A stretch of 64,000 nucleotides of DNA from Beroe forskalii (lineage: Eukaryota; Ctenophora; Nuda; Beroida; Beroidae). Below the pieces are notes generated by a model. The model saw nothing but the letters and a program-made list of their open reading frames with translations. It did no database searches and was not told the DNA's origin. The stretch lies in contig WFMF01000030.1 in assembly GCA_011033025.1 (NCBI GenBank), forward strand, positions 620,001 to 684,000. The letters run 5' to 3'. The position numbers and the translations under genes were made by a program. This document shows positions 37,330 to 60,663 of this stretch, piece by piece; the stretch's first letter is position 1, and each line of letters opens with the position of its first letter.

Positions 37330-38480
37330 GGCTCGGATATCCTACACGATCACGCTTCTATCCATCTACCCATACCGATCACGCCATCCATCTACCCATA
37401 CAAATCTGACTCACGCCACACTCCACCATACACTCACGCCATCCATCTACCCATACACTCACGTTGCTAATTCATCTACCCATACACTCACGCAACACTC
37501 ATCTACCCATACACTCACACCTACATACCTATACACCATGCCACATCCATCTACCCATACACTCACGCCATACTCATCTACCCATACACTGATCACACTC
37601 ATCTACTCATACACCTCACGCCACACTCATCTACCCAAGGCATTCATGCCAAGGCATCCATCTACCACATACACTCACGCCATACTCATCTACCCATAAA
37701 ACCTGCTACATCCATCTGGCCTACACTCACGCTACACTCATCTTATACCTGCCACACCACGCCATTCATCTACCCACACCACGCAACACTCATCTACCTA
37801 CACAACTCATGCTATACCTACCTACCTGCCACCACGCTACACTCATCTACCCACACTCACGCTACAATTCATCTAACGACCACCTCACGTCACTCATCTA
37901 CCACACTCACGCTACACTCATCTCCCACAATCACGCCAAGCACCATCTTACCCACAAGCACCACGCCACACCTCATCTACCCATACACTCACGCCACACT
38001 CACCTACCCATACACTCACACTCATCTACCTACACTACACCCCATTCACCTATTGCCATTCATGCTGCAATCCATCTACCCATACACCTACCATGCCACA
38101 CCTATCTACCCACACTCACACACTCATTTGCTTCCACACACTCATTTGTTACACTCATTCACCCATAGTCCTCATAAAGTTGCTATCTATTTCACCATTG
38201 CCACCATGCCACACTCATCTGGCCCACAAGCACCACGCGCAGCCTGTCTGCCTGAGCACCTCACGCCACAATCCATCTGCCTACAAGTTTGCTGATGTTG
38301 TTATCTCTGCCTGGCACTATACACCTCACATATACTGCCACCTCACGCTTCACCCTATCTACCATACTGGACGCCACGCCCATTCACCCACACTCATGCT
38401 GCCACTCATCTACCAGTACCCATGCACGCATACAATTACTTGCATACTGATCTACCCATACAACCACACCCCTGCACTAC
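37330..38480 (+). repeat. minisatellite, left array of the foldback
   Basis: About 27-bp units around CACTCATCTACCCATACACT, about 40 in number, very irregular in length. Open frames through it (His/Thr/Pro-rich) are products of the repeat, not genes. Confidence 0.85.
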
Positions 38481-39374: not shown

Positions 39375-39860
39375 CATGTATTCATCTACCCATACCTCAC
39401 GCTGCAACTACGCAAAAGGACGCAATTTGTTATATATATGTGACGTAAGTACAACTGAGTGGGAATTATGCATGGGGTGATGAGTGAGTGTATTAGATGA
39501 GTGTAGTGAGTGTATGGGCAGATGAGTGTAGTGATTGTAAGGGGTAGATGAGTGTAGCGTGTGAGTGTATGGGTATGGATGTGCGTGAGTGTAAGGTAGA
39601 CGGATGCAGACAGTAAAAGGGGGTAGAGAGTGTAGTGAGTGTAAGGGGAAGATGGATGTAGTGTGAGTGTATGGGTAGAGAGTGGAAGTGTGATCAGTGT
39701 ATGGGGTAGATGAGTGTAGTGTGAGTGTAAGGGAAGACGGATAGTGAGTGTAAGGGTAGATAGATGGGAAGCGTGGTGTATGGGTAGATGTATGTAAAGT
39801 GTGAGTGTATGTAGATGGATGTAGCGTGATCAGTGTATGCGGTAGATGGATAAAGTGTGA
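39375..39860 (-). repeat. minisatellite, right array of the foldback, inverted
   Basis: The same unit in reverse complement (GGGTAGATGAGTGTAGTGTG), about 18 units. It pairs with the array at 37330-38480. Confidence 0.85.
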
Positions 39861-41904
39861 GGAAAGCAACGCAAATGGTAGTTCTCTTACGCTTAGTTTC
39901 AGCGAGGTTTATTTTCTGAGTAATAAGCGAAAGAGGATTAAAAGTTAAAAGAGTTAATAAAATTAAATTTCTGCACAACATGGGGCGACACATTATTTTG
40001 ATTCATACAGTGTCGAGGCCCACACGCATGACCTACCCAGTCAAGTGATCTGTTCCCATAACAAGGTGATATCCGAACCCCTGCAGCCAAGACATACCTG
40101 AAGTTCTAAGCCTGAATAAGCTCTCAGATCATATTTCATCCTGTCAAAACGAGCACTGAAGTCATGCCTCTATGGTCACCTCGAGGTTCCTCCCCCATCA
40201 CCTCCCGTAGCTGCCTGCCTCTCCACCTCCGATGACGCACATTCATCAACATCATCCCCACAGCTGCTGCTCCCCTGCAGCTGAGGTGAGCTTCCGGGAC
40301 AGCTCAGCTCAACCCGCGCCTTCACCTGTCTCACCTTCTACGGGCAAGACTTAGTTGAGACTGATGATGCTTCCTTCCACTTGTTCAGGAAGAACCAAAA
40401 CGGAACAGTGCAGTGCTCTTCCTGCTGCTTGGAAGAAGAAGTGACAAGGCCTCCTTACCCTGAAAGCAAACTGTGCTTGCGAGCAATCTATAAATTTTCT
40501 GACATTACATCTTAGACCTACAAAAGTTCACAGTTACAATAATTATTACAGTACACACGGGGAGCAAGTACACTGTCCCTCAGTGAGCAGGATTGTCCCC
40601 TGCTCCTACATGCACAGCAAAGCATATCATACTGGTCCTGTCATTTGCTTCATCCCACCCCACAGCCCATACTATGTCAGATCAGTTTATCAAATGCTCA
40701 GCATCATCACCACTTCACAGCTTCACCTCACAATATCTCGAGCCAGTGATATTTCAACAAACACGGCCTTCAGCCTTGCTGAGAAACTATATTTGAAAAT
40801 TCCTGGAAATAGCGGCCCAAGTACTTCTACTGATCAAGCAAATATCGGCCAAGTGCCACCCCATTTCGACTATACTCGCGAAATCCGTGTTAGAATCTTT
40901 GCGCGCGGATATAAGCGTTATGTAGAATTGGTGATGGTGACGCCATACCGCGCTTCCATACAAGTATGGCTTACAAACTGTCAACGCCCAGGGGTTCCTC
41001 AGTCCACTAAAAACTGGATATCTCGGTCTTGTCTCACTGAGATCTATTGCTCAGGGCCGGAGCATACCAAAAATTAATTTTTTGGCAATTCTAAAGGAGC
41101 CACTGCAGGGACATACGTGTTTAGCAAAATGTCCGTCCTTCTTTTGACTTGTTGTTATGAAGGGCAAGGGGCATGGCCATGACGTCCAAATGGAATGCGA
41201 AGCGGTAGTAACATCAAACATCCTGGGCAAATGCAAAGCCCTTTCTCACTTGGGCTTTGAAATCCAAATCTTCAATAAGCAAATTTTTAATTACCTTACG
41301 AGGTAAGGTAGTAAAAGTGGCCCTTTGGACCAGGGTTATGAAAGGCAGTGGCCAAGGCACCTGTGCGCGAAACGCCAAAACCTTTCTCAATTCAGTGTCG
41401 ACATGACCTGGTTTAGTTGTTATGCCGCGCACTCAGTGCACCAGGGGCCTGGTTAGGGTGCCAAAACCAGGCGCTGGTTAGCACAAAAAGGGTGGCAAAA
41501 AAAGGAGCCGCAGAGAATGGAAGTCTGAAATAATAATAATAAATCACAATAAACTCTTTGATAGATTTTTAGTTGTCTAAAAACTGAAAGCCATATAGCA
41601 AACCTGCAAACAGTTTTCCCTGCAGTTAAAAAACTGCCCAAGATTTAAGCCTCACAAACTATTTTCTACTAAACATTTGGGCCAAAATTCGATTGTTTAT
41701 GGGTGTCTACAACAGAGCTCGGTATTTAGCACAAAAGATGTCAAGTTGTATGATCAAGTTGTATGATCTATTGACATTTCAAATATTTTCTGCTACAATC
41801 AATCAATCTTGATATTATCCTATCATTCAAAATTGCCATTCATGACTTTTGTTATTTTGCAAGAAGATATTTTATCATATTGTTGGGATGGTATTGTATT
41901 TGAA

Positions 41905-45165: not shown

Positions 45166-45724
45166 GAGGTAATTATATTTATACTAAAGTACTGAAATAC
45201 TTCAAATTCAAATAAATTCCTGGTACTAAGATACTTGCCGAGATTTTCAAGTATGGGATTTGATTTTATAGTTCTATATCTATATCTGTCATTTCTTTCC
45301 TATAGTTTCTCACTTGAGATGCAACTGCCTTCTGAGGAAATTACCTCATGTTTATAGTGAGAATTAATTAATTACCACTTAATTATAGTAATTCCCAATG
45401 GCCAATAAAGTTGGCAGAAGTATTCATTAATCTATTATGAAGGCCCATCAGCCCTCAGCACTTCCTCGCTGACCTGCCGACCTCAAAGGCCCCTGTCCCT
45501 ACTGACCCCTCAGTTGACTACTTCTGGCTGCAGGCCGACCCTTGGTCAGTGTCACCTCCTACTGCTAAGCAAACCACCCCTAAAAACTATTCATGACCGT
45601 GCTTGAGCAAATTGTGCACCTTTAAAACAAATTCTAGACCTCTTGTTTTCATCAAGTGGAAAACTCCTAAAAACCTCTTAAACATTTTTTACAAAGCAAT
45701 TTTCAGTATTTTATTCCATTTGAC

Positions 45725-46520
45725 AGATATCTCAAGTTCTGAATCAAGCCTCTCCACTACCATTTACACTGCACAGTTATCTCCCATCCTACATTTTGTA
45801 TCAAATAAGCTTCACCTGCTCCATATGGCAAGTTTCTCAAAGACTGAAAAGTGTTCTGCACTGGAAAATTGATAGTTCAATAGCATGGCTTTTTGCAAGA
45901 ATGTCTCAAAGTATTTTTCATTCCATTGCCAAATCCTGTGTGTTAGATGGGACATCACTTTCTGGGGTTTCATTTCTAGCTTTGGTCATGTTTTGTCTAC
46001 ATTATTTCAAATCATCGTTCATCTATCTCTACATAAAGACATCTAGAAAAGCAATTCTCTCAGAAAACCTGCATTAGTGCATTTTTGTTTTGCCATTTAA
46101 TGGTTGGTTACAATCAAAGAGAGCATCATTACACAAGCAATGATTTCAACAGAAAGTGACATATCTTTCTTTATGGGTAATATTATTTTTGATCGGCATG
46201 TACATAAATATAGCTTCAGATTATCACTTAAAATGACTTAGCAAAACAAAGAGTGAAACTACCTGCTACCTCACAGAGGGATGTTCAAGCATGTTTCAGC
46301 CAAGCAACTATTTTGGTGAAATATTAAGCGGATAGGATTCATGCTTATTCAGACATTAGCTGCTGCATGGTTTTTGCTTTACAAGTATTTTCCTAGGTCA
46401 AAGAGGTTACCAAACTTACAGATTTTATGCAAAGAAAAAAATTCCTGCAGACTATCCCACTCTTGGAAGTTCTATCATTCCATTCTCACTGATTCTAAAA
46501 CTGCCTGGGAGACTAGGTTT
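45725..46520 (+). pseudogene. broken SRD5A-like copy
   Basis: It parallels the intact gene at 48176-48946. Recognisable pieces in different frames include DISSSESSLSTTIYTA, KIDSSIAW, VSFLALVMFC, FIYLYIKTSRKA, and QTLAAAWF. At least half a dozen small insertions shift the frame, so no protein longer than about 90 residues is possible. Either it is a pseudogene or the local consensus sequence is poor. Confidence 0.8.
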
Positions 46521-46750
46521 TACCTTTCTTTGCAATGCTTTATTGCACACAAGGTAAAAGAGCAGTATCAGCTAATTTCAATTATATGTACAGTATAAGA
46601 AAATTTATATCCCAAGAAATCACAAAATGTTCAAATTAGACATAGAATTGTTACTCAATACTCAATATCATGTGGTAAGTATGTGATTTGAATATTGCAA
46701 ATACTTGTGAGATTGATCTACTATGTTACATAAATAGTATTCTGCAAACG

Positions 46751-47124: not shown

Positions 47125-49205
47125 GGTAAGGTTGCAAAAATGGTGGTAAAGAAGGAGTCAAAAGAGAACAAAGTCTGAAATAATAATAATAAATTATTAA
47201 ACTCTTTCAATAGATTTTAGTTGTCTAAAAGCTCAAAATATGTAGCTAACAGTTTTCCTGAAGTTAAAAACTGTCTAAGATTTGCCTCTACCATTTTCAC
47301 TACCCTTTTGACGAGGTTCTTTTGACTGATGAGCACACATACATGTGGAGCCCAAAAAACAAGGCTTACTACCCTGCTTTTCTGAATTTCTGATTCTTGG
47401 GCTAGTTTTTTGTTTTTGGGTTACATTTTTAACAGCTTTCCTAACGATTTTTGGGCTAAAATTCGATTGTTTTATGATGCCTACAACAGGAGCTTGGTAT
47501 TTAGCACAAAAGATGTCAAGTTGTATGATCTATTGGATATAGTTAAATAATATTTACACACAATCAATCAATCTGATAATGGTCCTATTATTCAAAATTC
47601 ACATCCATGACAGATGACTGTTTTGTTATTTTGCAAGAAGATATTTTAACATTGTTGGGATGTAAGTAATTATACTGAAGTACTGAAATAACTCTGCTAC
47701 TAAGATACTTGCCGAGATTTTTTGGCAAGTATATAGGATGATTTTCTAGTTCTATAACTGCAATACTTTTCCTATAGTTTTTCACTTGAGATGCAACTGT
47801 ATTCTAAGGAAATAACCTCATGCTTATAATTAATTAATTAATTATAGTGACTCCCAATGGCCATCAGTTAAGTAGAAGCATTCATTAATCCATTATGGCT
47901 GACCCAATGGCCCTCAGTGACCCCTTGCTGACCTGTCAGGGACTCAAAAAGGGTCTCCCCTTGTCCCTACTGACCCCTAGTTGACTACGTGGCTGCAGGC
48001 TGACCTCTGGTCAGTGGTCACCCTCCACTGACACTAATTTAAAACTATTCATGACTTTGAATAAATTGTAGCACCTTAAAACAACTTAGACCTCTTGTTT
48101 TTATCAAGTGGAACACTCCTAAAAACCCTTAAAACATTCTTTACAGCAATTTTCAGGTATCTTAGCTCCATTTCGATGGATATCTCAAGTTCTGAATCAA
48201 GCCTCTCCACTACCATTTACACTGCAACAGTTATCTCCATCCTAACATTCTTGTATCAAATAAGCTCACCTGCTCCATATGGCAAGTTTTCAAAGACTGG
48301 TGGTGTGTTCTGCACTCTGAAAATTGATAGTTCAATAGCATGGTTTGTGCAAGAATCTCCAGCATTTTTCATTCCATTTCACAACCTGTGTGTTAGATGG
48401 ACATCACTTTCTTGGGTTTCATTTCTAGCCTTGGTCATGTTTTGTTCACATTATTTCAACAGATCATTTATCTATCCTCTAAGCATAAAGACATCTAGAA
48501 AAGCACCTCTAGAAACCTGCATTAGTGCATTTTTGTTTTGCACATTTAATGGTTGGTTACAATCAAAGAGCATCATTACCTACAATGATTACAACAGAGT
48601 GACATATCTTTCTTTTATGGGTGTAATATTATTTTTGATTGGCATGTACATTAATATAGCTTCAGATTATCACTTAAATGACTTAGCAAAACAAAGAGTG
48701 GGGAACCAATACCTGCTACCTCACAGAGGGATGTTCAAGTATGTTTCAGCTGCTAACTATTTTGGTGAAATATTGGAGTGGATAGGATTCATGCTTTTTA
48801 TTCAGACATTAGCTGCTGCATGGTTTTGTTTCTTTACAAGTATTTTCCTAGGTCAAAGAGGTTACCAAACTCATAGATTTTATAAAGAAAAAATTGCAGA
48901 CTATCCCAAATTTCGAAGTTCTATCATTCCATTCACTGGATTCTAAAAACTGCCTGGAGACTAGGTTTTACCTCTTTGTAATGCTTATTGCACACATAAG
49001 GTAAAAGAGCAGTATCAGCTAATTTCTAATTATATGTACAGTATAAGAAAATTTATATCCTGTAAGAAATCATTAAATGTTCAAATTAGACATAGGATTG
49101 TTACTCAATACTCATTGATTATGTGTAGGCATGTGATTTGAATATTGTTTGTGCAATACTTGTGAGATTGATTCATTATGTTACATATAATAGTATTCTT
49201 GTGTA
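47125..49205 (+). repeat. downstream copy of the segmental duplication
   Basis: Uninterrupted counterpart of 41490-46750. It contains the intact SRD5A-like gene and shows the sequence ATTGTTGGGATGTAAGTAAT at the point where copy 1 received the foldback insertion. Confidence 0.8.
48176..48946 (+). CDS. steroid 5-alpha-reductase-like protein, single exon
   Basis: SRD5A-family enzymes reduce the delta-4 double bond of 3-oxo steroids using NADPH in the ER membrane. The ATG at 48176 gives 256 residues, the usual family length (about 254-259). Family landmarks: PYGKFSK near residue 40, IPFHNL, FIYPLSIKTSRKAPL, FLFCTFNGWLQS, GMYINIASDY, LPHRGMFKYVSAANYFGEILEW, and the C-terminal RFYKEKIADYPKFRSSIIPF. 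Several hydrophobic segments fit a seven-helix membrane protein. The frame stays open upstream to 48095 but without an earlier ATG. It has no intron, unlike the multi-exon vertebrate genes, so it may derive from a retrocopy. The substrate is unknown; it is closer to SRD5A1/2 than to SRD5A3 or TECR by eye. Confidence 0.88.
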   Translation: MDISSSESSLSTTIYTATVISILTFLYQISSPAPYGKFSKTGGVFCTLKIDSSIAWFVQESPAFFIPFHNLCVRWTSLSWVSFLALVMFCSHYFNRSFIYPLSIKTSRKAPLETCISAFLFCTFNGWLQSKSIITYNDYNRVTYLSFMGVILFLIGMYINIASDYHLNDLAKQRVGNQYLLPHRGMFKYVSAANYFGEILEWIGFMLFIQTLAAAWFCFFTSIFLGQRGYQTHRFYKEKIADYPKFRSSIIPFTGF

Positions 49206-49455: not shown

Positions 49456-49551
49456 ATGTCTAAGCTCCTCCGGTCAGAGGAGATGACCCTTGTACAGATC
49501 TTTCTGTCACAAGAGGCATCTTACAACTGTGTCAGAGAACTTGGGGAACTC
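49456..49551 (+). CDS. ATP6V0A: V-ATPase a exon 1
   Basis: ATG at 49456 starts [15 protein letters not shown], the universally conserved N-terminus, which fixes the start. Phase 0 at donor CTC|GTGAGT. Confidence 0.93.
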
Positions 49552-52500
49552 GTGAGTAGCAATTATTGAATAACTTCAATAATAGTTCTCCTTGTACTTG
49601 TATTCCTTAGTCATTAGTGTCTTATTTATTCGTGAAATTAGTCTACAAATCAAACTCGGCTTCCACTCGAGTGACTAGTGCTGTAATTGTCACTTAGCTT
49701 CGCTTCTTGCAAGTACAGCCACAACAGTTCCACAATCTGCCGTTAGATTAGCATATATAATCTAATGTACAACTTAAATGATTTGAGAGATGGTACAATA
49801 TATCAATCACTTAATAGCCTTTTTTCCAGGGTGCCATCCAGTTCTCAGATGTAAGTTTTTGAATGACCACTTTTTCATTCGATCCTAATGTTAGACTCTG
49901 ATTTCCATCAGACATGGATATTGGATAAATTAAGTTTTTGTGAGATCTAAGTATTATCTATCGTAGTGATTTAATTTGGACTTTGACGAATCTTTATTAT
50001 TATATTCACAAGTCAGTTATTTTTCAAAATATTTATTTCACTTATTTTCTAATTACAGTTGATCAATTTAGTGGTCAATGGTTCCATGAGATTCCATCTT
50101 GTGACAAAATGATTATTCCTTCAGCTCAATGAGGAAGTTAATGCCTTTTCACGAAACTATGTTTCTGAAATAAGGAGAACCGAGGAAATGGAAAGGCGAC
50201 TTCGTAAGAATTATAACCGTTTATGCCAAATGAATTTGTCTAATTTGTCAAATCATTCTCCAAGTACCAATTTATGATCCATGAGCAGCCATGAGACAGA
50301 TGATATTCTTAATTATAGACTAGACGAATTCTAAAACGAACGTTAGGGCAAGTGTCTTACTTATTCAATAAACCCACTGCTGTATACACTACTGAGACAT
50401 GATAATGAGTACCCTGACAGGGTTCTTTGCTGGTGAGATAGAAAGAGAGAACCTGCCTATTCCTGCCGATTATAACGTTCCTGCTGCTCCAAATCAAAAA
50501 GATCTTATCGACTTGGAGGTATTGTAAATTGCTCAAAAGTTTGGGACATAGATTATAAAACTCTGGCGGTACTAGTAGGCATTAAATAGAGTCTTCCTTC
50601 GCTCCATGCGTCCATCGGGTCAATTCGAGGTAAATGTTTCAATAGCTCAATGACCAAGAGTTATTACTTTATTAGGGCGACTGTATGTATTTATTTCAGG
50701 CTACTTTAGAACAGTTGGAGGGCGAAACTAGGCAGATAAACGCTAATCAGGAGGCTTTGCTGCGCAACTTCTACGAGCTGAAGGAACTGAAGCATGTTCT
50801 AAACTCTGCTAGTCAGTTCTTCCAGGAGGTTTGCTTCTCATGGTCATTAAGCATTCGAACATTGTGTAATATACATGACTTGAAATTCAAATTTCAAAAT
50901 TTTAGGGACAAAATTTTACGTGTGAGCTGGCTGCGCTCAAATAAGCTTATTTTAACTGAACGGACTGTTCAATGAATGTTTATTTCTAGCGCTTGGTAAT
51001 TATATCACAATAGATTCACAATGCAGGCAGCCAGCAAGCTGCACGATACCCGATGTCAGCATTTGGGCTGACGGACATTCCCTGTCTAATGATCTACTCA
51101 CATGCCTAGCAAAAAATAATTTTTTTGTTTAGAAAAATAGAGTAGTTCAATTTTTATAGATTATTTCTAGAATCCATTCAATCACAGCCGCCTGCTTACT
51201 CGCCACTGTGTGCAGGGTGCTGCAATCCAAGAGGAAGAGAGAACCTCGCAACAGCCTAAGTATGACGAGGAAACTGGCAACGTACCCCGGCATCTGAGCT
51301 TCCTGTGTGGTGTCATTAACAGAGCCAAGATACCCGTGTTTGAAAGAGTCCTGTGGAGGGCAAGCAGGGGTGAGTGTCTTGAGTCGTAATACCCACATAG
51401 GGTATATAATATACAAAATTCGCAATATCATTTGTATTTTTGAACGGTGTCTGTACGTTCCTTCTTTCATTGAAATCCATTATTTTTCAATCATTGTGTA
51501 CATATCTCTAGTATATCTTAATATCTAACTCCACGGCGTTATAAGCATCCGTTTCTCAGGGAAAGCACTGTTACGACACATGGAAATAGCTGAAGTCCTG
51601 AAGGATCCTGCCACAGAAGAGGAAATTCCAAAGTCTACCTTTATCGTCTACTTCCAGGGCGAGCAACTCAAGATGAGGGTCAAGAAAATCTGCGAAGGGT
51701 ACGTACTTCTCAGTACTAGTAGCATTTTTACAGAATCTTTACAGAGAGGCATCATATCATGATTCTAAGATAGTAGAACAGTGAATGACACACTGAAGGA
51801 TCGTCATTGTTGGTTGATCGGAGGACTGTTTTGTTGATGTCATGCTATCCTATACAGGTTGGGAGCTACGACCTACCCCTGCAAAGAAGACTGGGAGGAG
51901 AGAAGACAGACTGAGTCTGAAGTGGATAAGAGGCTGGAGGAGTTGAGTAGCATTCTGCTGGAGACAAAGAACCACAGGTTCAGAATGCTGAACACAGTAG
52001 TTAGCAGCATCAACTCCTGGATTATACAGGTCAGTGTTCTTACAGAGCTTTATTATATACGATACGGTATCAGGACATTATATACTGGTAGAATGAATAC
52101 TGATAAGGTGAAAATAAAATAATACTTTTAGAGTTTTAGCATCTTTCCACCTGTTACTATTTTAGATAAGTAGCTATCAAATGTGCCATGATTAGGAAAA
52201 GTACCCCGGCAGGTGCGCAAAGTGAAGGCTATCTACTACACAATGAACAAGTTCAAGAAGACCGAGACTGGCTTGCTGCACGCTGAAGGCTGGTGTCCAA
52301 AGAACGCACTTGCTGATATTGATAGAGCTTTGAAGAAGGGAGCTGTGAGTAGTGTTGTGTGACTTGAATTCCTCTACACTGTCACTCACACACACGTGTA
52401 TTATTGTACAGTGTATTATTGTACAGTGTTAATTGTATTCTGTTAATATCGGAGAGACGGTTGAAGAGTCTGTGTTTACCGTCTGTCTCCAAGTGTGTGT

Positions 52501-55500
52501 GCAGTAGACAGCACGTTACACCGTTACAGGCAGCTGCAGGAAGTGGGGTGCCACCCATTCTCAATTACACCGTTACAGGCAGCTGCAGGAAGTGGGGTGC
52601 CACCCATTCTCAATTACACCGTTACAGGCAGCTGCAGGAAGTGGGGTGCCACCCATTCTCAATCACACCGTTACAGGCAGCTGCAGGGAGTGGGGTGCCA
52701 CCCATTCTCAATTACACCGTTACAGGCAGCTGCAGGAGTGGGGTGCCACCCATTCTCAATTACACCGTTACAGGCAGCTGCAGGGAGTGGGGTGCCACCC
52801 ATTCTCAATTACACCGTTACAGGCAGCTGCAGGATCAGGAAGTGGGGTGCCACCCATTCTCAATTACACCGTTACAGGCAGCTGCAGGAAGTGGGGTGCC
52901 ACCCATTCTCAATAACACCGTTACAGGCGGCGGCAGGGAGTGGGGTGCCACCCATTCTCAATAACACCGTTACAGGCAGCTGCAGGAAGTGGGGTGCCAC
53001 CCATTCTCAATTACACCGTTACAGGCAGCTGCAGGAAGTGGGGTGCCACCCATTCTCAATTACACCGTTACAGGCAGCTGCAGGGGAGTGGGGTGCCACC
53101 CATTCTCAATTACACCGTTACAGGCAGCTGCAGGAAGTGGGGTGCCACCCATTCTCAATTACACCGTTACAGGCAGCTGCAGGAAGTGGGGTGCCACCCA
53201 TTCTCAATAACACCGTTACAGGCAGCGGCAGGGAGTGGGGTGCCACCCATTCTCAATAACACCGTTACAGGCAGCTGCAGGAAGTGGGGTGCCACCCATT
53301 CTCAATTACACCGTTACAGGCAGCTGCAGGAAGTGGGGTGCCACCCATTCTCAATTACACCGTTACAGGCAGCTGCAGGGAGTGGGGTGCCACCCATTCT
53401 CAATTACACCGTTACAGGCAGCTGCAGGAAGTGGGGTGCCACCCATTCTCAATTACACCGTTACAGGCAGCTGCAGGAAGTGGGGTGCCACCCATTCTCA
53501 ATTACACCGTTACAGGCAGCTGCAGGGAGTGGGGTGCCACCCATTCTCAATAACACCGTTACAGGCAGCTGCAGGAAGTGGGGTGCCACCCATTCTCAAT
53601 TACACCGTTACAGGCAGCTGCAGGAAGTGGGGTGCCACCCATTCTCAATAACACCGTTACAGGCAGCTGCAGGAAGTGGGGTGCCACCCATTCTCAATAA
53701 CACCGTTACAGGCAGCTGCAGGGAGTGGGGTGCCACCCATTCTCAATCACACCGTTACAGGCAGCTGCAGGAAGTGGGGTGCCACCCATTCTCAATACAC
53801 CGTTACAGGCAGCTGCAGGAAGTGGGGTGCCACCCATTCTCAATTACACCGTTACAGGCAGCTGCAGGAAGTGGGGTGCCACCCATTCTCAATCACACCG
53901 TTACAGGCAGCTGCAGGAAGTGGGGTGCCACCCATTCTCAATAACACCGTTACAGGCAGCTGCAGGGAGTGGGGTGCCACCCATTCTCAATTACACCGTT
54001 ACAGGCAGCTGCAGGAAGTGGGGTGCCACCCATTCTCAATTACACCGTTACAGGCAGCTGCAGGTAGTGGGGTGCCACCCATTCTCAACACGGTCACCAC
54101 CCGCCGAACTCCCCCCACCCACCACCGAGTTAACAAGCTCACCAAGGGTTACCAGGCTATCATAGACGCCTACAGTGTAGCTACCTACCAAGAAATCAAC
54201 CCTGGTATGTGTATTCCTCTTTGTACTGGCTCTTCTGGCTCTTTTTGTTTGTGCACTGTCAACTTAATGTCGCAAAGTCATAGCTGGAAAAGACTTGTAA
54301 AATTAGAATTCCTAACAATATTCCCCATTCTTAGTGTATTGTCTCGCATTTCAACAAATATTACTAAAGAAATAAAGAATGTAATGTTTGATGATGCTTC
54401 AGAGCACCACTACGCGTAACATGCCACTGACATAGAAATAGTAATAATCCCATGCCCCCTGATCCGCAGCAATCTTCACTATCATCACCTTCCCCTTCCT
54501 GTTCGGTATCATGTTCGGGGATATCGGGCACGGCTTCATCATGTTCCTGGCTGGACTTTACCTCGTTGTCAAGGAGGCTCACTTCGGGAAACGCATCAAG
54601 TCCTACGAAGAGGTTTGTGTCTGCCTGTCTGTCTGTCTGTCTGTCTGTCTGTCTGCCTGTCAGTTTGTGTGTCATCTTTGAAAGTCAAAATGTTAGTAGT
54701 TAATAACAAGGAATTATCTCAGATATTTTAAATTTCAGATATTCACGATGATGTTCCATGGTCGTTACATCATTATGATGAATGGCCTGTTTGCGATGTG
54801 GGCTGGATTCCTCTACAACGACATATTTTCCCTTTCTATCAACATATTCGGCTCAGCGTGGACACCTGACTATGATGCTCTCACTAATGGGTTAGTGGTG
54901 ATTTGATTGACCCTGTTACCTCCATTCCAGTCCATTAGGTGACGTGCTTAGTGTGAAGTATTGACTACTTATCTACTACTGGTATGTGGACACCTAGTTT
55001 GACTTATTTCTATCTTTGACGCGTGTTCTGATTTATTCTTTTACCGGACGCGTATTGTGACGCTTTGTACATCGTGACGGGAAGTTAGAATATCCGCAGT
55101 TTCTGCCGTAGGACTGCCGTTCAGTTTCAAGAGTTTAGGTATTTGAATATCTACATTTAGTGTTATTAATTATAATCCCTCTGATAATTTCTTGCAGGTC
55201 AGTTATCAACAAAGAAGGAATGTACGGTCTCGATCCTCAGGACCCGAACCAGTACTCTGGCAATCCTTATCCCTTCGGGATTGATCCCTTCTGGAACTTT
55301 TCTGAGAACAAGCTGACTTTCATCAACTCTTACAAAATGAAAATGGCTGTGATTTTAGGCTTAGTACAAATGACCTTTGGTCTTGTCCTCAGTCTATACA
55401 ACTACAGGTAATTCGATATTTTCTTTGTTTTTTTGCTATATGTCACATATGCTGTGGTGTTTTGAGTCTATGTTTTGGCGACAAAATTCTGACATATCCT

Positions 55501-58500
55501 TAATCCTGGGTAGAAGTAACCGCTCAGCTAAGTTTAATTTGCATCCGATTTATGATTCTGAATGATGTGAGTGAATGGTAGACGTTTCAATATGTCAATA
55601 TTTTGTTCCAATTTTGGGAAGTTTTCGTGCAATTGGAAAATGGAACAAAATGTGTACGAAATGATGACATTTTGCGAATTGGAACGAAATGGATATAGTA
55701 CGAAATTTTGTCATATTTATTTGTGCGGTAACGGTCAACGAAACATCTAAACAATATACGCTATCGGTCATAGTCTTAGAATGAAAATAATCGGCTTAGT
55801 TGGTAAGACGTTGGACAAATCGTTTGGCGCACGCGTCGCGCGTTGTCCCTAATGTCCCACAATATTGCAATCCAATGTCTTATCTATAGAGGTGTGTGGG
55901 TAAACTACAAACATAACAAAATACTGCATATCGATTTTCTAATTCAAGGATTGACATGAGAGGCGGAAGAGACTGAACTGTGAATCATCAGCGGTTACCC
56001 TACAGTTGTAAGGTCTCCTGCCATCTGCGATGTAGGTGTACCATCAGCAGGTGACAAAGGGAAACGGAGGGATGCAATGTGTTCACAAATTCGTGAATCT
56101 GATGAACAAAAAACCGCATGGACTGAACAGAGAAGTAATTGTTGAGCTGCAGTAAGGACTCTACAGTCCGAGCTTCATCTGCAAGACGAGAGAGGAAGAA
56201 GGAAGGAAGAACAGGAAGTGGAAACCTGGTGAGGTTTTGGACGAGGCTGTCCAGCGGGTTACCTATAAACACGCCTTCAAAGGACAGTCGGACAGGAGAG
56301 GCCTTGGGCATGGTGTATACTGCAAAAATCGCTCAGAAAAAGAGATATCCCAAGAAGTATGCAACATCACTGAAGAGGAGAAGATCCTCATATACTGAGC
56401 CTTGCACAGCAGCAAAATGGCTGGAATGGGATAACCTCATCAATTTGGACATGAAATGGCAGGAAATGATGTATGCACTAAGTCCGAGTATGCTCTCTTT
56501 TGTACTGAACTCTGTCCAAGACACTCTGCCACATCCCAGGAATCTACGCAGATGGAAGTTGGATGTTGAGGCCGCTTGTGCAGCTTGTGTGGATGGAAAT
56601 CGTTCTGAACAGCGTCGGCCTTGTCTACACTGTGTGGTGCAAAGTCGCCCCTGGAACACAATTTCTTACTTTACCGACATGACAGTATCCTGAAGGAGAT
56701 AGCTGAGGCCCTGACTAAGAAGATCCAGGCTATTGAAGAAGTCGTCCCACTACCAAGCGGAGTACAAAAGGTTGACTTCTGGTTGAATCTGGCCAAAGAA
56801 CAAAGAAGAAGAAGAAAAGAAACCAGCGACAGGTCTATTAGATGTCGCCAAGGACTGGGGTGACGGTCGCGGACACACGTCGGAATCAAGCCCATTTCCC
56901 ACCCCACATCATGACAACGTCAGACAGACTGGATCTGGTCCTTTACCCAACAACACCAGGAATGTCGTCATGATAGAACTAACTTCGCCAGCAGAAGAAA
57001 AACATCGAGAAATGGCGGAGCATCAAGCAATCGAAGTATGAAAAGCTAGCCGAAATATCCGTGAGGTTGGTACATGGAAGCTTCACGGTACTTACTGTAG
57101 AAGTCGGGGGCCAGAGGATACGTTGCCAAACGGACGAATTATGTCTGGAGGAAGCTTGGGCTGTCATATCAGGATGGTAAATAAGCTGTCAGAAAGACTC
57201 TCAAGGGGTAGCATTGGTGGTGTTCCCATTTCATCTGGATATGCCGCAACACTAAGATATGGACATCACCCACGGAGAGTAAGTGACTGCATGGAGATGT
57301 CCCATGAAGTGTCCATGAAGAGTGCCCATGGGGAGTACCCACGGAGGGGTGCCCATGGAGAGTACCCACGAAAAGGTGCCCGGAGACTACCCACGGAGGG
57401 TGCCCATGAAGATCACCCCTGAAGGTGCCCATTGCAAGTACCCACGATGGTGCCAATGGAGAGTACCCATTGAGGGTGTACATGGAGATTACCCATGGAG
57501 AGTACCCATGGAGTGTACTCATGGAGAGTACCCTTGTTCACTTTTCAAAGATATGGAATCCTGGAAATCAAAGACCTGGAAATCACCTTTGGAGAGTGTG
57601 TGATTATTCCCACTCTTAGGTTGATCCCTGCTAACCTACCGTCCATATCTCAGTCTATGGGCGCTTGTGGCATGCACAAGCGCCGGGTGATCTTATGCTT
57701 TGGCCGGGACACACCCATCGGTGCTTCATATTTTGCCATAGCTCCATTGAGATATATCGTACACCCCTGTAAATGGGACAACCCAAAAGATGTAAAGTGT
57801 ACATAGTTTTGATGATGGATGTATTATTTGGATCCAAAGATGTATGCAGAATAACACTGCCCCATAACTCAAGCTAGCTTGAGTGAAGCGGTGTGGGGAT
57901 GTGGACGTTATGGGCAACGAGCACCTCTCCCCCCTTTCCTGCCCCCCTGGAAAAAGTTGTGTTAGATGAAAGATGGTGCCCTGGCAAAGTTGTGTTAGAT
58001 GACAGATGGTGATGGATGAAGTTGCTCTGCAAACAGGTCAGTATTGGTACAGTGGTACAGTGTCTCAGACCACGAATCGCATGTTTAAAGAAAAACTCAG
58101 TCCTTCCTGATTTACTGTGCACATTTCACACCCCTGTCATGTCCCTGTTCATTTCAGATTCAAAGGCAAGACGCTGGACATCTACTGCACGTTTATCCCC
58201 CAGATGATCTTCATGCAATGTCTCATCGGCTACCTGGTCTTCATGATATTCTACAAGTGGTTTGCCATCAGTGCTGCCTCTCCCGAGCAGCCATCTTTGC
58301 TCATCTGTCTCATCAACATGTTCCTGCAGTTTGGGGCCGAGATAGAGTTCGGCTCCAACCTTTATCCTTATCAGGTTTGTGAGGGAGCTGAGGAATCAGT
58401 GAGTCACAGCAACATTGATTTATAAATCTTAAAGATTGATTAATCAATCAATCTTTAAGATTAATTGATTATTTGCCCATTTCAGAGATATGTTCAGAGC

Positions 58501-60663
58501 GCCCTTGTGGTACTAGCTGTCATCTGTGTACCGTGGATGCTGGGTCTTAAGCCGCTCATTGAACACTGTTATCCACGAATCTCACAAGCGGTAAGTTTCC
58601 TCTATTCTTGAATTCTAGAAACTGAGTCCATTCTTATTGGGGAATATCGGAACCGTTTTTTATCTGACTTAAAACTCGTCGCTTTCTATGTCTTTTAATT
58701 ATCAATATCCAGCTTGTTCGAACCTGAAATATAGAAGAACAATGCCCTTAGCCCTTTATTCCTTAACTTCGAACTTTAAATCTTGCAAAGCTGAACTTCA
58801 TTATTTAGCAGCCCTATCATACTAAAATTGTTGCCTAAAAGCAGAAGTCTTACCATGCCTCCTTGATCTTGGTAATTTAGCAAAGCTCTGATGAAACTTA
58901 AAACAGATCAGTGTGTATCACCTAGAGCATCTAGCAACGCGGTCTTACTGGTCTTGGTACATTAAATTAATACATGTTCCATGTGCAATGTCTTATAATG
59001 TCTCCAAATCAGCGGTTCTAAGAGTAACTATGTATTCTTATTACATTATACATGTCTATGTTACCTAATTCAGTGTACCCTGTTATAATAACACGTGACA
59101 GTATTAAAGTTAATTATAACCTCATCAACAAATTGCTGCTGAGAATTCTATCTGATTCCTCTCTGATTCCTGTGCGCATGTATCGCTGATGCACCATCAT
59201 CTCACTCCACTAGAGCTACGCTCCAATACCACAGAGCTACGAGCAGTTTGATAATGAGGGGGAAGGTGGTGCCTCCGAAGGGGACGCCGAGGGGGAGGAA
59301 GAACCCCACTCCATGATGGACATCATGGTGCACCAGGGCATCGAGACCATCGAGTTTACCTTGGGCTGTATTTCCAATACTGCCAGCTACCTCCGACTGT
59401 GGGCTCTTTCTCTGGCTCACGCAGGTGAGAAATACCATATTATTATTGTGTCCAATGGAATCTTTAAGTCATCGTTTTACACTCTCAAGCTCATATGTTT
59501 GTAGAATGTAGTTGTCATGTAATCTCCGTGTTGATTTCATGAAGCTGTATTCCTTTTCATTCTATTTTCAAACGGAGGAAGACAGACTTAACTCAAACTG
59601 CCTCGGTTGAGCCACATCTCAACCTCCAACCAATGATGTTTGTAGAAGGTTAATGATCATACACATGAAACCAAGTGGTTGGAATGATGGCACCTGTTCA
59701 TGTTAAACGCTCTACAAACTCCCCTCTTGAATCATGCTATCCCATCCCCCCTCTCAACCTTACTTTCTCTTAGAGTTGTCCGAAGTGTTGTGGACCATGG
59801 TAATGCAGGCGGGACTCAGCATGGACATCAACCCCTACGTGAACCCCATCGCCATTGTCATCACCTTCGCGTTCTGGGCTACCCTCACTATCGCTATTCT
59901 CCTGGTTATGGAGGGGCTGTCCGCATTCCTGCACGCTCTCCGTCTTCACTGGTACGTATCTGTTAGCACGGTTAGATTAGAATAGTTACCATGGTGAAAT
60001 TACGCTGGTTACCATGGTAACATTACACTGGTTACCATGGTACCATTACACTGGTTACCATGATACCATTACACCGGTTACCATGATACCATTACACTGG
60101 TTACCATGGTACCATTACACTGGTTACCATGATACCATTACACTGGTTACCATGGTAACATTACACTGGTTACCATGGTACCATTACGCTGGTTACCATG
60201 GTACCATTACACTGGTAACGCCGGTAGCAATGGTAACATTTTAATGTGGTTACCATTACTTGAATTTCCATCACCGCGTTGCTGGCTCAATGGTGCCCAT
60301 CCCTGAAAATGTTGAAATTGAATTGATATTCGATTTACCACCCACCCCAGTGGTAATATAAGAGAAATTTAACGATGAGTCAGGGGACACGCCTCGCTCT
60401 TATGTATCAGAGCAATTTTGAACATCACGTCTCATGCTCTCCTATTCATCGCTTGATCGTACATTAGGTCTTCTTATTCCGTCTAGGCCAGTGCCTAGCT
60501 GAAGTAGAAATTTCACTGAATAATAATATATTTCACTGAATAATAATGATATTTCTCGTTTTCCAGGGTTGAGTTCCAAAACAAGTTCTATCAAGGAGAA
60601 GGGCACAAGTTCTCCCCCTTCTCCTTCCAGAGAGTTCTTGACGGAGACGATGAAGAAGTTTAG
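49456..60663 (+). CDS. ATP6V0A: V-ATPase V0 subunit a, complete, 18 exons
   Basis: Subunit a is the large membrane stator of the vacuolar proton pump; its C-terminal half forms the proton half-channels against the c-ring. Eighteen exons join in phase to 2463 bases (820 residues), or 2484 (827) with the alternative exon-16 acceptor. The N-terminal cytosolic part starts [13 protein letters not shown]. The membrane part contains [21 protein letters not shown], the essential channel arginine in [14 protein letters not shown] (Arg-720, equivalent to yeast Arg-735) and HALRLHWVEF (Arg-786, yeast Arg-799). It ends DGDDEEV. Length and landmarks match animal a1-type subunits; the paralogue cannot be fixed. 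Intron 9 holds an array of 32 copies of the exon-10 acceptor. Confidence 0.95.
49830..49850 (+). CDS. ATP6V0A: V-ATPase a exon 2, a 21-bp microexon
   Basis: Seven codons, GAIQFSD, between TTTTTTCCAG and GTAAGT. They correspond to the GKVQFRD segment of other a subunits and join phase 0 on both sides. Confidence 0.88.
50125..50203 (+). CDS. ATP6V0A: V-ATPase a exon 3
   Basis: [18 protein letters not shown] between CCTTCAG and GTAAGA; ends one base into a codon. It forms part of the N-terminal coiled-coil arm. Confidence 0.92.
50421..50518 (+). CDS. ATP6V0A: V-ATPase a exon 4
   Basis: [20 protein letters not shown] and KDLIDLE; acceptor CCTGACAG, donor GAG|GTATTG, phase 0 at the end. Confidence 0.9.
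50700..50828 (+). CDS. ATP6V0A: V-ATPase a exon 5
   Basis: 43 codons, [20 protein letters not shown] onward to SQFFQE; matches the LExNxKxINxNQEALKRNFxEL heptad region. Donor GAG|GTTTGC. Confidence 0.92.
51216..51369 (+). CDS. ATP6V0A: V-ATPase a exon 6
   Basis: Begins with a variable acidic linker, then [20 protein letters not shown], the conserved FxxGVIxRxxxxxFERxLWR motif. Donor AGGG|GTGAGT, one base over. Confidence 0.93.
51560..51698 (+). CDS. ATP6V0A: V-ATPase a exon 7
   Basis: [14 protein letters not shown] and [20 protein letters not shown], a conserved core of the cytosolic domain. Donor GAAGG|GTACGT. Confidence 0.93.
51858..52029 (+). CDS. ATP6V0A: V-ATPase a exon 8
   Basis: Starts GLGATTYPC and runs through [16 protein letters not shown] to SWIIQ; the YPCP-type motif follows the FQG block as in the family. 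Confidence 0.92.
52213..52344 (+). CDS. ATP6V0A: V-ATPase a exon 9
   Basis: 44 codons, [15 protein letters not shown] to [10 protein letters not shown], with the AEGWCP motif. Ends in phase 0 at GCT|GTGAGT; the next intron carries the acceptor array. Confidence 0.93.
52518..54090 (+). repeat. 49-bp minisatellite: 32 tandem copies of the exon-10 splice acceptor
   Basis: Units start (first base after the acceptor AG) at 52530, 52579, 52628 and so on to 54054: 31 complete units and a last one that runs into exon 10. Twenty-seven units are 49 bp; exceptions are 48 (52726, 53761), 50 (53074) and 55 bp (52823). Each has CCGTTACAG|GCAGCTG plus GTGGGGTGCCACCCATTCTC, i.e. the acceptor and the first 36 or so bases of exon 10. 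Most units have no stop in any frame; those with AATAACACC have TAA in one frame. Confidence 0.97.
54054..54204 (+). CDS. ATP6V0A: V-ATPase a exon 10
   Basis: Phase 0 requires the acceptor GTTACAG|GCA at 54053, giving [14 protein letters not shown], then [18 protein letters not shown] and [15 protein letters not shown], the conserved TPPTxxxxNKxTxxFQxIVDAYG block. The start of the exon is identical in design to every minisatellite unit. Confidence 0.9.
54470..54612 (+). CDS. ATP6V0A: V-ATPase a exon 11, first membrane segment
   Basis: [20 protein letters not shown], the hallmark of the membrane domain. Donor GAG|GTTTGT is followed by a TGTC microsatellite. Confidence 0.95.
54624..54662 (+). 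repeat. (TGTC)n microsatellite
   Basis: About eight TGTC units starting some ten bases after the exon-11 donor. Confidence 0.9.
54739..54890 (+). CDS. ATP6V0A: V-ATPase a exon 12
   Basis: [20 protein letters not shown] and [17 protein letters not shown]; matches F.GRYIILLMGxFxxYTGxIYNDxFS. Donor GG|GTTAGT. Confidence 0.94.
55198..55407 (+). CDS. ATP6V0A: V-ATPase a exon 13
   Basis: [10 protein letters not shown], then [18 protein letters not shown], highly conserved. Ends two bases into a codon at CAG|GTAATT. Confidence 0.95.
56150..57250 (+). mobile_element. decayed non-LTR-type retroelement, 3' part of its ORF
   Basis: Pieces in shifting frames read [59 protein letters not shown], then [21 protein letters not shown] and [10 protein letters not shown] Cys-containing finger, a YRHDxILxxIA block and an IELTxPxEE/VEVG nuclease-like segment in this order occur downstream of the RT in retroelement proteins of marine invertebrates. 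Several frameshifts and stops make it inactive. The family name is uncertain. Confidence 0.55.
57270..57540 (+). repeat. minisatellite of CCCATGGAGAGTACCCA type
   Basis: About a dozen units of 18-24 bp with alternating GGAGAGTACCCA and GGAGGGTGCCCA, palindromic CCATGG cores. Non-coding. Confidence 0.85.
58158..58374 (+). CDS. ATP6V0A: V-ATPase a exon 14
   Basis: [24 protein letters not shown] and [14 protein letters not shown]; matches the FIPExIFMxxLFGYLxxxIFYKW block. Donor CAG|GTTTGT. Confidence 0.95.
58486..58590 (+). CDS. ATP6V0A: V-ATPase a exon 15
   Basis: 35 codons, [20 protein letters not shown], the VPWMLxxKP membrane segment. An AT-rich inverted repeat (ATCAATCAATC) lies in the intron just before. 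Confidence 0.94.
59214..59424 (+). CDS. ATP6V0A: V-ATPase a exon 16 with two possible acceptors
   Basis: Acidic loop [15 protein letters not shown], then [20 protein letters not shown] and [14 protein letters not shown] with the channel Arg and His. Acceptors CCACTAG|AGCTACG (exon from 59214) and ACCACAG|AGCTACG (from 59235) are 21 bases apart and both keep frame, adding or omitting seven residues (SYAPIPQ). Confidence 0.93.
59774..59951 (+). CDS. ATP6V0A: V-ATPase a exon 17
   Basis: [39 protein letters not shown] and LRLHW; last transmembrane helices, with the second channel Arg. Donor CTG|GTACGT. Confidence 0.95.
59985..60255 (+). repeat. 23-bp minisatellite with GGTTACCATGGTACC cores
   Basis: About eleven units in intron 17; each core is nearly palindromic, so the array can form repeated small hairpins. 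Reading frames through it are not genes. Confidence 0.9.
60567..60663 (+). CDS. ATP6V0A: V-ATPase a exon 18 and stop
   Basis: [20 protein letters not shown] to DGDDEEV, stop TAG at 60661-60663. This is the expected family C-terminus. Confidence 0.95.

Follow-up and report, generated by a model that had tools for sequence, protein, structure and literature searches.

How does the spliceosome arrive at one normal protein when the acceptor of a single intron is present 32 times over? The question is raised by the gene for subunit a of the V-ATPase in the ctenophore Beroe forskalii, which lies in a stretch of 64,000 nucleotides (assembly GCA_011033025.1, contig WFMF01000030.1, positions 620,001 to 684,000; hereafter the window, to which the coordinates of the gene refer), and in which a minisatellite repeats the boundary between intron 9 and exon 10.

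The V-ATPase a gene and its genomic setting

The coding part of the gene extends from 49456 to 60663 on the forward strand and comprises 18 coding exons, which are joined by GT-AG junctions throughout and yield an intact protein of 827 amino acids. The best matches of this protein were those of Mnemiopsis leidyi (82% identity), Bolinopsis microptera (81%) and a further record (83%), and the next named animals after the ctenophores were about 50% identical (among the 7998 candidates sharing most words); no match was similar enough to represent the protein of the species itself. Many animals possess several V-ATPase a-subunit genes. By searching the assembly (216 Mb, 1134 contigs) with PF01496 we recovered 12 matches, every one of them inside the gene described here (48 of 49 candidates scored), which thus appears to be the sole a-subunit gene of the genome; since only one such gene was found, its efficient normal splicing is presumably needed. 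Coding exon 9 (52213-52344, forward strand, phase 0, donor gtgagt) is followed by an intron 9 of 1709 nt (52345-54053) and, when read from the acceptor closest to the exon, by a coding exon 10 of 151 nt (54054-54204, donor gtatgt).

Elsewhere in the gene, TRF reported two minisatellites that do not lie at a splice boundary, one in intron 13 (57290-57533, 26 bp x 9.5, 71%) and one in intron 17 (59985-60216, 23 bp x 10.1, 93%). Upstream of the gene, the window holds an ORF of 283 amino acids (48095-48946) that matches PF02544 (3-oxo-5-alpha-steroid 4-dehydrogenase), a seemingly decayed copy of its sequence upstream of it (by eye, ~45700-46560), and two minisatellite fields (37360-38035 and 39483-39861) whose units, by eye, look like mutual reverse complements. 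A search of the whole window against Rfam gave no match at gathering scores.

Anatomy of the array in intron 9

The array occupies positions 52516 to 54088 of the forward strand (TRF: period 49, 32.0 copies, 96% matches, score 2901), where an earlier note on this DNA had let it run from 52518 to 54204. Each of its 32 units joins the last 14 nt of intron 9 (TTACACCGTTACAG) to the first 35 nt of exon 10 (GCAGCTGCAGG...CTCAA), i.e. it reads TTACACCGTTACAG up to the splice point and GCAGCTGCAGGAAGTGGGGTGCCACCCATTCTCAA beyond it, so that the intron and exon sequences of one and the same boundary are both contained in the repeat unit; the note had recognized this boundary and its 32 copies correctly, and had put the exonic part at about 36 bases. 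The acceptor TTACAG|G is intact in 32/32 units, and the pattern GTTACAG|GC[AG]GC occurs at 32 sites, whose first exon bases run from 52530 to 54054 with spacings that are mostly of 49 bp (27 of 31; two of 48, one of 50 and one of 55 bp). The array is not a chance feature. It makes up 90% of intron 9 (almost all of it, as had been claimed), and with a single unit the intron would measure 185 nt, a length in line with those of the 16 other introns of the gene (median ~270 nt).

The 32 units fall into 14 types that differ at about five variable positions and by small indels; unit 1 belongs to the most frequent type, and unit 32 alone carries GGT for GGA (a synonymous difference). The longest block of unit types that recurs within the array is two units long, and since 2000 of 2000 shuffles reached this length as well, we see no sign of recent block duplication. 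With only about five positions varying, no claim of selection on the unit acceptors is possible. Furthermore, a reading of the units as miniature exon-introns with a donor of their own was set aside, as by eye they contain no good GT donor. A two-unit DNA query against the assembly returned 12 matches, all at this locus, and although such a search is no proof of rarity, it found the locus in single copy; an origin by a dispersed element or by cut-and-paste is out, as the unit was found at one locus only and is built from the local boundary. Misassembly is frequent in tandem arrays, and the copy number, or the array itself, might in principle be an artefact; we regard this as very improbable, because the units differ from one another, the array is flanked on both sides by unique sequence (by eye), and similar arrays stand at other loci of the same genome (see below).

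Reading frames and productive acceptors

Successive acceptors rotate the reading frame, and in the frame of exon 10 stops lie at 52962, 53208 and 53649 (both as the earlier note had stated). Among the 32 main acceptors, only three (units 25, 29 and 32) are productive, i.e. in frame and stop-free: the acceptor of unit 25 (53712, forward strand) would add 114 residues, that of unit 29 (53907, forward strand) 49 residues, and that of unit 32 (54054) none. The note had named the same three sites as the only ones giving a full-length protein, which holds for the main acceptors and overlooks two further CAGs per unit, as a unit as a rule carries three CAGs (at offsets 0, +4 and +10). Counted over the whole of intron 9, 9 of 98 CAGs are productive (three per offset), among them two secondary CAGs in unit 31, which are in frame (first exon base 54009, +15 residues; first exon base 54015, +13 residues; forward strand); with AGs of any kind included (AAG, GAG and TAG as well), the count is 12 of 137.

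The existence of in-frame acceptors at 53712 and 53907, and the absence of stops, by eye, from all three forward frames of the commonest unit, could be taken to mean that the array is coding, or that an extended exon belongs to the normal protein. This reading is hardly credible, given that the paths from 29/32 main acceptors run into a stop, either within the array or within exon 10, and that the eight aligned relatives all lack an insert at this junction.

Acceptor strength and the probable choice of 54054

The junction produced from 54054 aligns without gaps to Mnemiopsis (which reads ALKRGAQAAGSEVAPILN), Bolinopsis and six other V-ATPase a proteins, and no insertion at the exon 9/10 junction was seen in these eight proteins or in the best solved structures shown. 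As the proteins of the relatives have no insertion at this point, 54054 is probably the normal acceptor, a conclusion drawn from protein comparison.

The strength of the acceptors was scored with a matrix built from just 16 sites (the other acceptors of the V-ATPase a gene), under which 54054 reached 5.5, close to the median (~5.35) of the leave-one-out scores of the 16 others (-4.6 to 10.8); a score this high is reached by about 4.4% of all AGs in the window. Within the array, 30 of the 32 unit acceptors score between 3.9 and 6.1, the exceptions being unit 1 (first exonic base 52530, forward strand, score -4.3), whose weak upstream context is unique sequence, and the acceptor at 53809 (-2.9), which sits behind a one-base deletion. 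A branch-point-like CTCAA is found at -16 of unit 32 and, by eye, at the equivalent place in the preceding units. Since the local upstream context of units 2-31 matches that of unit 32, nothing local separates the latter from the former, and the choice of acceptor would be set by exon definition (the exon body and the downstream donor), by position, or by decay of the wrong products. The same equality speaks against use of the proximal site, since a first-come or scanning choice would favour the upstream units. Moreover, according to a comparative study, the move towards exon definition took place in the ancestors of bilaterians (PMC6142364), and exon definition is for this reason not a given in a ctenophore.

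Boundary arrays at other loci of the genome

V-ATPase a is one of several genes with boundary arrays in this ctenophore. Our TRF survey covered 175.6 kb at 49 family loci (30 with kinase and 19 with ABC matches), a further 31.6 kb at 4 flanking loci and 19.4 kb at 4 myosin loci, and we checked by hand the arrays near matches or with visible splice signals, with the exception of those near kinase matches (e.g. L031 and L040). The families were picked, and two contigs (C785 and C29) were chosen partly for internal stops in the hits; as the loci are thus not random, no rate of boundary arrays can be given. Within this small, non-random survey, eight further boundary arrays were identified at ABC-transporter and myosin loci; four of these arrays (those of C773, C785 and C253, and the donor-side one of C29) are either short or of less certain placement.

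Five of the eight repeat an acceptor. In an ABCA gene on contig C463, 15 acceptors in units of ~64 bp (L063, 1927-2884; spacings 63-70 bp) include a single productive one, the last, whose junction is gapless against ABCA3, and in the next intron of the same gene five acceptors in units of 41 bp (L070, 509-710) precede ...YGDGYTITLTMPESK, two of them in frame and stop-free over the 66 codons read. A further ABC transporter (C773, L061, 1473-1580) has a 45-bp unit with two acceptors, the first of which gives a stop. In the myosin gene of C225 (L076, 756-1022 in gene orientation, the reverse of the locus), a 34-bp unit carries seven intact acceptors and again only the last is productive (junction FEIFD|FNSFEQL, gapless against myosin-6). 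The myosin gene of C29 carries an acceptor array (L077, 2798-4992, likewise in gene orientation and reverse of the locus), with ~32-33 units at spacings of 60-78 bp (31.9 copies by TRF; 33 by a pattern with up to two mismatches). As its units hold two CAGs 8 bases apart, we counted whichever agrees with the reading frame of myosin, and 2 of the 26 acceptors that fit a stricter motif proved productive (exon against myosin VI, E 1.6e-7). With a second array of about the same size, 32 acceptors are not unusual within this genome, where the earlier note had known of no described case with as many.

The remaining three repeat a donor: three donors in a 37-bp unit in the C29 myosin gene (L077, 1580-1690, gene orientation, reverse of the locus), where the exon match is weak (E 0.003); two donors in a 22-bp unit in the myosin gene of C785 (L074, 2807-2854); and a probable case with eight donors in a 32-bp unit in an ABCA gene (C253, L068, 849-1113, reverse strand), the upstream exon of which had no Pfam match. 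The fourth myosin locus (L075) had no boundary array in its TRF list, and at L060 and L064 the hand check found arrays without a boundary repeat that could be placed. In all six acceptor arrays together, the counted acceptors number 87 (32+15+5+2+7+26), of which 10 are productive; each array has its last acceptor among these, i.e. the copy that continues into the exon.

Comparison with known boundary repeats

Tandem repeats that span a splice boundary, at either end of an intron, have been described in amphioxus under the name of 'mirages' (Adh3, globins and troponin C, with imperfect ones in PGBD5; PMC3087553; PMC3902484), and the human ABCA7 VNTR is likewise on record, so the kind of structure is not new. 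Like the amphioxus cases (Adh3, BflGb6/BflGb9, troponin C and PGBD5), the arrays reported here are minisatellite-like tandem duplications of an intron-exon boundary, which occur on the acceptor and on the donor side and in which many units keep their AG or GT signals. They differ in their host, a ctenophore and not a cephalochordate, and the V-ATPase a array differs in size, having 32 units against the 6 and 3 given for two haplotypes of BflGb6, and a unit of 49 bp against 10-72 bp in Adh3 and 150-160 bp in BflGb6. The accounts of amphioxus further describe concerted evolution within a cluster from which the boundary unit is excluded, splicing that is reported or thought to be undisturbed, and somatic instability of the Adh3 mirage (PMC3087553; PMC3902484); length and somatic instability have been shown there, whereas the present array is known from one assembly copy. 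No report of mirages in a ctenophore was found among the matches listed (openly licensed papers), and what appears to be new is the host phylum, how large the array is, and that such arrays recur.

In human ABCA7, a VNTR in intron 18 has a 25-bp unit that begins with the donor of exon 18 and is present in ~12-427 copies; its length is reported to correlate with more skipping of exon 19 and lower expression, and one extra unit may be retained, with a frameshift, at a level that does not change with length (PMC5954066). As in V-ATPase a, a splice site of the adjacent exon lies within the repeat unit; unlike in V-ATPase a, it is the donor that is repeated, and effects of length have been measured. 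By this example, a boundary VNTR can alter splicing, a point against the tolerance proposed below. A further likeness is to intron gain by tandem repeats (the Rogers model; Zhuo et al. 2007, as treated in PMC3087553), where tandem duplication with splice signals also alters intron structure, with the difference that here an existing intron was lengthened and none created.

Proposed origin and tolerance of the array

Taken together, these observations make it very likely that the array is a tolerated mirage, which arose by duplication across the boundary, from which the exon-proximal acceptor is chosen, and which possibly causes waste at a low level. The ancestral intron 9 would have had a length of ~185 nt, and the mirage would have begun when sequence straddling the end of intron 9 and the start of exon 10 was duplicated in tandem, and would later have grown by slippage or unequal exchange. 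From unit 2 on, the 35 nt of copied exon could provide the next acceptor with a pyrimidine-rich stretch and with the CTCAA at -16, and each unit from the second would thereby be a self-contained acceptor module of ordinary strength. The spliceosome would mostly take 54054, probably since exon 10 (151 nt) and the donor that follows it are recognized jointly, and the other 31 units would act as intron. Occasional splicing to the main acceptors one or two units upstream (giving exons of 200 and 249 nt) would lead to frameshift and nonsense-mediated decay, a modest cost that may depend on copy number.

The earlier note had gone further, proposing that repeat number tunes the output of the gene. 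In its full form this would mean that many unit acceptors are used, that most of the products are destroyed by nonsense-mediated decay, and that V-ATPase a, together with rare isoforms extended by 13 to 129 residues, is produced in amounts fixed by repeat number. Such a role would suit an array with 32 intact acceptors, of which 30 have almost the same strength, and in which 29/32 main acceptors are non-productive, and the correlation of ABCA7 VNTR length with exon-19 skipping and expression (PMC5954066) gives it a precedent. Against it, retention of one unit in ABCA7 was independent of VNTR length (PMC5954066), and for amphioxus mirages undisturbed splicing is reported (PMC3087553). Furthermore, with so few variable positions selection cannot be read from the acceptors being intact; unrelated genes carry arrays in which productive sites are about as scarce, which looks like a general mutational habit; and the extended form is absent from the eight aligned relatives. 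We therefore judge a regulatory role of this extent to be improbable, and keep to the tolerated mirage, for which tuning of V-ATPase a by copy number is a possible consequence.

Implications

The broadest reading of these data would be that mirages are widespread in this genome, at donors as well as acceptors and in essential genes, that they form a class of copy-number-dependent splicing rheostats in which unstable arrays of equivalent sites tune the productive mRNA between individuals (and perhaps somatic cells), and that they are a main route of intron growth; we offer it as a long shot. Such arrays are likely to trip gene predictors and short-read aligners. A gene with ~32 near-identical acceptors, the last of which is needed for the normal protein, puts the spliceosome, in a natural experiment, before a row of equal 3' splice sites, and what is at stake is whether it takes the first AG from the branch point or follows exon definition. 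Moreover, mirages have now turned up more than once in a ctenophore, an animal far removed from amphioxus; this hints at a general way in which minisatellites make introns longer and may give rise to new splice variants.
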